The translations under genes were made by a program, and so were the position numbers. The notes beneath the pieces were generated by a model, which was not told the origin of the DNA, did no database searches, and saw only the letters and a list, made by a program, of their open reading frames with translations. From positions 310,001 through 374,000 of the forward strand of contig CANMVY010000001.1 in the NCBI GenBank assembly GCA_947501265.1: a DNA stretch of 64,000 bases, written 5' to 3'. Positions 60,496 to 63,207 of this stretch are shown here, in pieces. This DNA is from Bacteroidota bacterium (lineage in GTDB: Bacteria; Bacteroidota; Bacteroidia; UBA7662; CANHCV01). Within the stretch, counting starts at the first letter, position 1, and the number at the start of each line of letters is the position of its first letter.

Positions 60496-60499
60496 GCAT

Positions 60500-60507
60500 C
60501 AAAGGTA
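60500..60507 (-). promoter_or_regulatory. -7 element (TACCTTTG) four bases before the murF start
   Basis: A perfect TAnnTTTG match on the minus strand followed by ATGC and the murF ATG at 60495. A second in-frame ATG lies at 60489. Confidence 0.6.
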
Positions 60508-60855
60508 AAAAGAATGAAAAAAGAATGGGTGTGTTTGCAACATTTTACACCCTTCAGTTGTCTATACAACAATCGATGTCCAGCTTGGAATTCATTCTTG
60601 ATTTATGTTGGTCGTAGTTGTGTGTTTTTCAAGGTCCCACTTCGGTGGGACTTTGTGTTTTGAGATGAATTGGGGACCAAAAAAAATTGCAGAAAATAGA
60701 ATTTAACGGGGATCAACATCATGGCTGAGTTTTAGATTCTGCAGGAATCCGAAAGGTTGCTGAATGGCAAACCATTCATTAAGCCTTGTTTCCAAAGTTG
60801 ATTCAAAAAAATGAAAACTTTGATTATTTGAACTTCACTATTCTAAAATCCCCAC
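60508..60855. other. Gene-poor gap with hairpins
   Basis: This stretch of about 350 bases between murF and the 44-aa gene has no convincing coding frame. It holds an 11-bp GC-rich hairpin with a TTCG loop (60631-60654) and a weaker 7-bp inverted repeat (TGAATGG / CCATTCA, 60761-60778). It may contain a small RNA or only a 3' end; nothing else is recognised. Confidence 0.5.
60631..60654 (+). terminator. UUCG-loop hairpin in the murF upstream gap
   Basis: GTCCCAC TTCG GTGGGAC, with the stem extendable by CAAG/TTTG using one G-U pair on the plus strand, then a T-rich run. It is very stable and terminator-like; its gene is not identified. Confidence 0.45.
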
Positions 60856-60990
60856 TCACAGAATCATCTCCAACAAACCTTTCCCCAATACCAACCACAA
60901 AATCCCCTTGATTAAAAAGAAGAAAAACCCAACCCAGCCCAATCGCTTAAGCCATCCTCGAAATCCTTTCTTACCTGGTTGCTCTTCCAT
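60856..60990 (-). CDS. 44-residue membrane microprotein
   Basis: This short frame has a basic, hydrophilic start (EEQPGKKGFRGWLKRLG). One transmembrane helix follows (about residues 18-38, WVGFFFFLIKGILWLVLGKG), then a short tail. It ends with TGA. The pattern, a basic N-terminus plus FFLIKG.LW, is one I associate with tiny unannotated Bacteroidota membrane proteins. A perfect TAGTTTTG box (61005-60998, minus) lies seven bases before the ATG, so it has its own promoter divergent from the peptidase gene. Function is unknown. Confidence 0.65.
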   Translation of the reverse strand: MEEQPGKKGFRGWLKRLGWVGFFFFLIKGILWLVLGKGLLEMIL

Positions 60991-60997
60991 GACATCA

Positions 60998-61005
60998 CAA
61001 AACTA
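60998..61005 (-). promoter_or_regulatory. -7 element (TAGTTTTG) of the 44-aa gene
   Basis: A perfect TAnnTTTG match on the minus strand, seven bases before the ATG at 60990. Confidence 0.5.
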
Positions 61006-61059
61006 AACAACTACCGCCACCTTCAAAAGTTTTCCGCCCCTGCATTCATCCCTTTACCT

Positions 61060-61071: not shown

Positions 61072-63207
61072 ATGAAGAACTTTATCCTTTTCATCGCGCT
61101 CCTCCTCGGCGCATCCTTGCACGCCCAAGAACAACTCAGTATCCGCGACGCCGTTCTCGGCCTGCGCGACAAATACCGGCCCGATAACCTGCGCAACTTG
61201 CAGTGGATCAAAGGAATGGACGCTTTCTCCCAAACCGAAAAAACCGACTCCGGCTGGATCATCACCCTCACCGAAGTTCCTTCTTTCAAAAAGAACTTGG
61301 TAACCACCCTCAAAAAAATCAACGAAGCCGGAAAATTCACCGGGAAAGATGCCCTCGCCTCCATTCCTCCCATCACCTGGATTAATGCTGACGCCTTCGA
61401 ATTTTCCAAAGGCCTTCAACGTTACCAATTCACCCGCATCAACAACAACGTTTTGCTGGTCGCCTCCACTCCAGCCGATGCGGAACACCTTGAAACCGCT
61501 TCCAACGGATCCATCGCCTACGTGAAAGACAAAATCGTTCACATCGAAACCAAAGCTGGCCAGAAATGGACCGTGGGAAATCCGCAAATGACCAACGGAC
61601 AATCCGTTCACCGAAATGAATTCGGAATCGAAAAAGGATTGTTCTGGTCGCCAAACGGGCGATTTCTCGCTTATTATTCCATGGACGAGTCGCCTGTGGC
61701 CGATTATCCCGTTCCCAATTGGAGCACCACCCCCGCTACCGTTCAACAGGTGAAATACCCCATGGCCGGTCAGCCTTCCCACCGCGTTTCCCTCCTGGTT
61801 GTAGATGCTTCAACCGGAAAAGAAATCCGGGTGCAAACGGGCAATCCCGACGAGCATTACCTCACCAACATCAGCTGGGATCCTTCCGAAAAATTCGTGT
61901 ACATCTTCAAACTTAATCGCGAACAAAATCACCAGAAACTGAATCAATACGAAGCGGCTGACGGAAAATTTATCCGCACATTGCTGGAAGAAAAAGATGA
62001 AAAATATTCTGAACCTCTGCACGAAATTCATTTCGTGCCCAATGGAAAAGGGCAATTCATTCGATTGAGCCGGCAGGACGGTTACTCCCATTGTTACTTG
62101 CACGATGCTGCCGGTCAACTCATCAAGCAACTCACTAAAGGTCCTTGGGAAGTGCTTTCGTTCATCGGATTCGATGCAATGGGCAAACATTTCTACATCA
62201 CAGATAACCAAGGCGATTACCTCAGCACCTTCGCTCACAAAGTTTCTTTGGATGGAAGGATGTCGGCCACCAAACTCCCTTCTGGAACTCATGCCATCCA
62301 ATTTTCCCATTCGGGCAAGTACCTCATCGATCAATTCAACTCCATGAAAGATCCCATGGTGGTTTCAGTCCTTGATTTGAATGGAAAGGTCTTGAAAGAA
62401 CTGTTGCGCAGTGCCGATAAATTAGCCAACATAAAAACGGCCAACGTTCAATTGCTGAAGTTGAAGTCGGCCGACGGAAAGTTTGAACTTCCTGCCAAGT
62501 TGATGCTCCCCGCCAATTTCGATTCTGCCAAAAAATACCCAGTCATCGTTTATCTCTACGGAGGGCCGCACTTGCAACTGTTGAAAAACAGCTACCCTGC
62601 TTCCGGCAACCTTTGGTACGACTACATGACTCAGCAGGGATTCATTGTTTTTTCCATGGAAAACCGTGGAGCGGCCAATCGAGGAAAAGACTTCGAGCAA
62701 GCCACCTTCCGTCAGTTAGGGTCGGCCGAAATGGCCGATCAGCTTCAAGGGGTGGCTTACCTCAAATCCCTTCCGTACATCGATACCACCAAAATGGGCG
62801 TGCACGGATGGAGTTTCGGCGGATTCATGACGACCGGCTTGATGACCCGTTTCCCGGGTACGTTCCAGGTGGGCGTTGCCGGTGGACCGGTGATCAATTG
62901 GGAATGGTACGAAGTGATGTACACCGAGCGTTACATGGATAGCCCCAAGGAAAATCCGGAAGGATACAAATCCAACAACTTGATCAATTACGTGAAAAAT
63001 CTTCAAGGAGATTTATTGATGATCCACGGAACCCAAGACGATGTGGTGGTTTGGCAGCACAGTTTGAACTACTTGAAAAAATCGGTTGAAGAAGGAAAAC
63101 AGGTCGATTATTACGTTTATCCGGGGCATGCCCACAACGTAACGGGACCTGATCGGGTGCACTTGATGGATAAGATTTCGAGGTACTTTATCGAGAAATT
63201 GAAGTGA
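61072..63207 (+). CDS. Exported S9 peptidase, DPP-IV family
   Basis: The 711-residue protein has a signal peptide (about 1-17, ending LHAQ) and a DPP-IV-type beta-propeller (about 85-450; GLFWSPNGRFLAYYSMDES). A C-terminal alpha/beta hydrolase domain follows, with the nucleophile Ser in GVHGWSFGGFM, GTQDDVVVW (Asp) and PGHAHNV (His). It removes X-Pro or X-Ala dipeptides from exported peptides in the periplasm. The frame opens at 60979, but ATG 61072 fits the signal and promoter. Its stop overlaps the phosphorylase start by four bases. Confidence 0.92.
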   Translation: MKNFILFIALLLGASLHAQEQLSIRDAVLGLRDKYRPDNLRNLQWIKGMDAFSQTEKTDSGWIITLTEVPSFKKNLVTTLKKINEAGKFTGKDALASIPPITWINADAFEFSKGLQRYQFTRINNNVLLVASTPADAEHLETASNGSIAYVKDKIVHIETKAGQKWTVGNPQMTNGQSVHRNEFGIEKGLFWSPNGRFLAYYSMDESPVADYPVPNWSTTPATVQQVKYPMAGQPSHRVSLLVVDASTGKEIRVQTGNPDEHYLTNISWDPSEKFVYIFKLNREQNHQKLNQYEAADGKFIRTLLEEKDEKYSEPLHEIHFVPNGKGQFIRLSRQDGYSHCYLHDAAGQLIKQLTKGPWEVLSFIGFDAMGKHFYITDNQGDYLSTFAHKVSLDGRMSATKLPSGTHAIQFSHSGKYLIDQFNSMKDPMVVSVLDLNGKVLKELLRSADKLANIKTANVQLLKLKSADGKFELPAKLMLPANFDSAKKYPVIVYLYGGPHLQLLKNSYPASGNLWYDYMTQQGFIVFSMENRGAANRGKDFEQATFRQLGSAEMADQLQGVAYLKSLPYIDTTKMGVHGWSFGGFMTTGLMTRFPGTFQVGVAGGPVINWEWYEVMYTERYMDSPKENPEGYKSNNLINYVKNLQGDLLMIHGTQDDVVVWQHSLNYLKKSVEEGKQVDYYVYPGHAHNVTGPDRVHLMDKISRYFIEKLK

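Follow-up and report, generated by a model that had tools for sequence, protein, structure and literature searches.

A short minus-strand frame in Bacteroidota encodes a predicted single-helix membrane microprotein of a cross-phylum family

Can a minus-strand frame of 44 codons, below the usual limits of gene calling, be a gene, and what might its product do? The frame lies in a window of 64,000 nucleotides, the whole stretch of Bacteroidota DNA that was analysed. It begins with ATG, and its translation has a basic N-terminus followed by one long hydrophobic stretch. A first-pass annotation had described it as a membrane microprotein with its own promoter; when the sequence was read again, its coordinates, strand, 44-residue length and motif all proved exact (Table 1). 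Judged by the sequence comparisons below, the frame is a genuine protein-coding gene, chromosomal and usually single-copy.

Table 1 Features of the microprotein locus (positions in the window). PF, Pfam accession number.
Feature	Position	Strand	Basis
Microprotein ORF, 44 codons and stop (MEEQPGKKGFRGWLKRLGWVGFFFFLIKGILWLVLGKGLLEMIL)	60856..60990	minus	orthologs and purifying selection
Hydrophobic helix core, residues about 17–40, with invariant G18, F24, F25, K28, G29, W32	60871..60942	minus	conservation and AlphaFold helix 8–43
Invariant Lys28 codon, middle of hydrophobic stretch	60907..60909	minus	K in 100% of distinct sequences
Predicted 3-nt leader, expected start site 60993	60991..60993	minus	inferred from box at -12 to -5 (PMC9723704)
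Putative -7 promoter box TAGTTTTG, TAnnTTTG type, G at -10 unusual	60998..61005	minus	kept in G001 and G002
Putative -33 promoter element TTTG, 18 bases upstream of -7 box	61024..61027	minus	sequence pattern
Divergent exported DPP IV-type S9 peptidase, sharing an 81-bp intergenic region	61072..63207	plus	PF00930, PF00326

Evidence for the gene and extent of its family

The same frame was found by tblastn in both other genomes of the genus (G001 and G002; 98% and 88% identity, E 3e-23 and 6e-21). In the DNA alignment of the three species, the ORF and the 81-bp intergenic region are alike, and similarity collapses directly after the stop codon. Between the window and G002, there are 5, 3, and 11 changes at codon positions 1, 2, and 3, respectively, with the amino acid changes gathered at both protein termini; within the core (24 codons), dN is 0.02 against a dS of 0.32. 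A pool of 205 moderately close pairs, which are non-independent and were chosen by motif anchor, gives a pN/pS of 0.13. By these measures the core is under strong purifying selection, and the frame has the properties of a small-membrane-protein gene, namely an ORF of at most ~50 codons under such selection. The first-pass annotation had named loss of the frame in close relatives and a substitution pattern typical of noncoding DNA as grounds for abandoning the gene; the frame recurs in G001, in G002 and in genomes across the class, and substitutions fall mainly at synonymous sites, unlike in noncoding DNA.

A control with the reversed family profile gave 0 matches below E 1e-3 in 1.29 Mb, compared with 170 for the true profile (locus duplicates included), so the matches are not explained by hydrophobic composition. 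A chance ORF, or an untranslated RNA in place of a protein gene, could appeal to the short length only; the third-position substitution pattern, conservation bounded by the ORF, protein similarity across phyla, the empty reversed-profile search and the lack of an Rfam match argue against this reading. At the level of sequence this reading is refuted, and we give it a negligible probability.

The microprotein was detected by tblastn in 17 of the 20 nearest genomes of the same order. Profile searches were positive for 89 of 296 genomes of the class (E ≤ 0.01), and 25 of 392 across the phylum (E ≤ 1e-4). A second order gave 73 of 199, the class containing a Pyrinomonadaceae (Acidobacteria) metagenome-assembled genome (MAG) gave 32 of 98, and the order containing a Gammaproteobacteria-titled MAG gave 3 of 5. 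Named carriers include Spirosoma, Larkinella, Emticicia, Fibrella, Siphonobacter, Chitinophaga, Olivibacter, and Pelobium. As delimited by these searches, the family spans many Bacteroidota and some Acidobacteria and Gammaproteobacteria. One copy is present in almost every positive genome; distribution within families is patchy, and some absences may be detection failures, since profile scores fall off gradually. A locus under the title Glaciecola amylolytica (CP034120.1) was rejected as evidence for Gammaproteobacteria; the organism name is probably wrong, because the genome groups in the order of a Chryseobacterium-titled MAG.

No credible match to the family was obtained in Pfam, PHROGs, or PDB, and NCBIfam returned sub-threshold noise only; a literature search found no paper on the core motif or on the family. 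The microprotein is, on these comparisons, a new cross-phylum family of a known kind (small membrane proteins), without an entry in the curated libraries searched. The find is thereby larger than the first-pass annotation had stated.

Three candidate assignments were rejected. The CrgA models (PF06781, NF001194) gave weak matches for 17 of 57 family members (best E 6e-4), short of the curated Pfam cut-off; the CrgA profile misses the microprotein gene in its own genome and gives below-cut-off matches in unrelated genomes, which indicates generic helix similarity. The cell-division protein CrgA has two helices, in contrast to the one predicted here. Two members matched the KGW motif small protein of Acinetobacter (NF040911, KGW_Acineto; best E 0.056, short of the NCBIfam cut-off), which is likewise short and is named for its KGW motif; homology is without support. 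Like those to CrgA, the matches to this protein and weak ones to PgaD were judged to be generic helix similarity.

Promoter and neighbouring genes

Upstream of the gene the order is TTTG, N18, TAGTTTTG, 7 nt, ATG. At the same position the box reads TAGTTTTG in G001 and TAGATTTG in G002, and promoter and ATG spacing are conserved in the three species. The flavobacterial TAnnTTTG box spans -12 to -5 (PMC9723704), which would place the start site here at about 60993 and leave a 3-nt leader. By sequence, the box also ends within the 4–7 nt before the ATG expected of near-leaderless sigma-A transcripts of Bacteroidota. In F. psychrophilum, 5.5% of the mapped mRNAs are leaderless (PMC9723704); leaders exceed 10 nt in 87% of predicted F. 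johnsoniae transcripts (PMC6847099). The "perfect" box at seven bases of the first-pass annotation stood as to spacing and TAnnTTTG match, but "perfect" was too strong: a G at -10 is virtually never present in F. johnsoniae promoters (PMC6847099), and this is not an ideal Flavobacterium box.

Genome-wide, TTTG-N17-20-TAnnTTTG-N4-8-ATG occurs 12 times, as against 3 for the reversed pattern. A full box stands 2–11 nt before the chosen ATG in 8 of 80 family loci, several of the eight being close relatives; the corresponding figures are 0.6% for all ATGs and 3.7% for neighbouring genes. Within the window, TTTG-N17-21-TAnnTTTG is found at chance frequency; only its placement next to the ATG and the fact that the genus has conserved it make the promoter credible. 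That conservation supports the promoter claimed at first pass, and the gene probably has a sigma-A-type promoter of its own that yields a near-leaderless mRNA.

A short, basic, hydrophobic product with its own promoter could also be the toxin of a type I toxin-antitoxin pair, or the product of a phage or mobile element. We consider this very improbable: the gene is present in one copy per genome and evolves slowly, no relatives were found in plasmid and phage collections, viral contigs held only 6 loci, and Rfam was without a match. No multi-copy or mobile-element-linked arrangement was seen, and, for the antisense promoter expected of such a pair, no plus-strand TAnnTTTG (the one pattern searched) was present after 58558.

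Divergence from an exported peptidase, claimed at first pass, was confirmed: the neighbour encodes an S9 peptidase of DPP IV type whose start resembles a signal peptide (MKNFILFIALLLGASLHAQ), its start codon is separated by 81 bp from that of the microprotein gene, and the linkage is kept in G001 and G002. On the other side, a gene for a murF-like ligase begins 360 bp downstream of the microprotein gene and shares its strand. In G001 and G002, two Fib_succ_major genes (about 1005–1086 aa) lie between the microprotein gene and murF (L131 8653–14935; L132 2636–8916); they are absent from the corresponding part of the window (60496–60855). Within that part, at 60630–60660, a short strong hairpin (GGTCCCACTTCGGTGGGACT) precedes a T-rich run on the plus strand; it is possibly the leftover terminator of the missing genes.

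Elsewhere in the family, neighbours encode a lysine-decarboxylase-like protein, CAAX protease, HemS, FtsX permease, PD40 protein, carboxyltransferase, exonuclease, GNAT, ABM monooxygenase, methylmalonyl-CoA mutase, and sigma-70 factor. An operon partner was rejected, as neighbours are functionally unrelated and differ from clade to clade; linkages specific to a clade (carboxyltransferase in seven loci; MacB-type permeases) are not shared between clades. A linked partner gene is unlikely for the same lack of functional relation among adjacent genes. A single MAG (G019:C97, minus strand) has one continuous frame that runs from an upstream FtsX/MacB-like permease into the microprotein; in relatives a stop codon lies between the two.

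Helix, candidate function and orientation

The family core has the consensus W-L-K-R-x-G-x-x-G-F-x-F-F-L-I-K-G-x-x-W-L. Among distinct sequences from tblastn and HMM searches, the six residues listed as invariant in Table 1 do not vary, and W13, G21, and F22 are nearly invariant. One alignment (A2) was gathered by motif pattern, which biases invariance; the residues were rechecked on the tblastn and HMM loci and hold in this set not selected by motif. The AlphaFold monomer consists of one helix (residues 8–43, mean pLDDT 84). With hydropathy by alignment column, it bears out, as a prediction, the single membrane helix of the first-pass annotation, the helix being long enough to span a membrane. 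Conservation periodicity peaks at 100–102 degrees per residue in two of three segments (p 0.07–0.23, not significant), and a placement of the conserved residues on one helical face is only suggestive.

A protein of ~44 residues with a helix nearly unchanged across phyla, without a curated family or genomic partner, implies an unrecognised membrane function. Because the gene is kept alone, in single copy, and with side-chain-specific constraint inside the membrane helix, we infer, at about an even chance, that the microprotein acts as a modulator by docking onto a membrane protein whose gene is unlinked. The conserved helix, in which Lys28 is invariant at mid-membrane and which also carries G18, G21, G29, F25, and W32, would contact this larger integral membrane protein, the product of a gene at another chromosomal site, and would modulate its activity or stability. 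A more specific form of this proposal is possible, if doubtful: throughout this uncurated cross-phylum family, the invariant mid-helix lysine would serve, within the membrane, as the docking point on a widely shared membrane machine encoded at an unlinked site, with near-leaderless mRNAs in part of the family.

The main rival, which we hold to be rather unlikely, is a membrane or stress factor acting without a partner, its helix altering membrane properties or respiration directly or forming homo-oligomers through a Gly/Lys/Trp face. It would agree with the missing linked partner gene, and the glycines and charge of the helix could drive self-association, a matter on which the AlphaFold monomer model is silent. 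YohP, a small membrane protein of E. coli, is reported to cause metabolic silencing (PMC12719787), which lends the idea some support; the cross-phylum invariance of side chains, in contrast, exceeds what bulk lipid effects would need. YohP shares its very small size, its single membrane helix and its functional class with the microprotein; homology to it was not detected, and the present family is found in Bacteroidota, Acidobacteria, and some Gammaproteobacteria.

Docking as a modulator also has to be set against a role as an obligate small subunit in some known complex of respiration or transport, the remaining genes of which would be unlinked. Size and single helix are as in CydX of cytochrome bd (PMC6005532). 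Among the neighbours scanned, however, no respiratory operon adjoins the gene, and the patchy distribution within families and the lack of a Pfam or PDB match also disagree with this alternative, which we regard as improbable. Like the microprotein, CydX (in cytochrome bd) and AcrZ (on AcrB) have fewer than about 50 residues and a single helix, and are short ORFs that are easily missed; unlike them, it has no linked partner, shows no sequence match to either, and carries an invariant mid-helix lysine and an FxFFLIKGxxW core. The invariance of K28, G29, and W32 offers direct mutational handles, and the cultured carrier genera Spirosoma, Emticicia, Larkinella, and Chitinophaga make the microprotein testable.

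Lysine and arginine cluster ahead of the helix. By the positive-inside rule, the Lys/Arg-rich flank of a helix stays in the cytoplasm, which places the N-terminus inside. A comparison of two related MAG loci bears on the other end. Compared with L058, L163 (G473:C1:500-6500, minus 1054–2394) has an apparent deletion that takes out the stop codon of the microprotein, the DNA between the genes, and the signal peptide encoded by the gene that follows. The microprotein helix is thereby in frame with the mature part of a beta-lactamase-family exported enzyme, in place of its signal peptide; the enzyme ends in a probable type IX sorting domain. If the fusion, seen in one MAG and possibly an assembly error or pseudogene, is real, the helix exports what follows it, and the C-terminus of the microprotein would be outside. 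The microprotein is most likely a single-pass inner-membrane protein in N-in/C-out orientation, with the Lys/Arg-rich N-terminus cytoplasmic and the short C-terminus facing the periplasm. In L058, where the two genes are separate, tandem-like repeats (GAGGGCAACTGGCGTTGCGAGGGTCCT...) occupy about 1363–1530, between the microprotein stop and the beta-lactamase-family gene.
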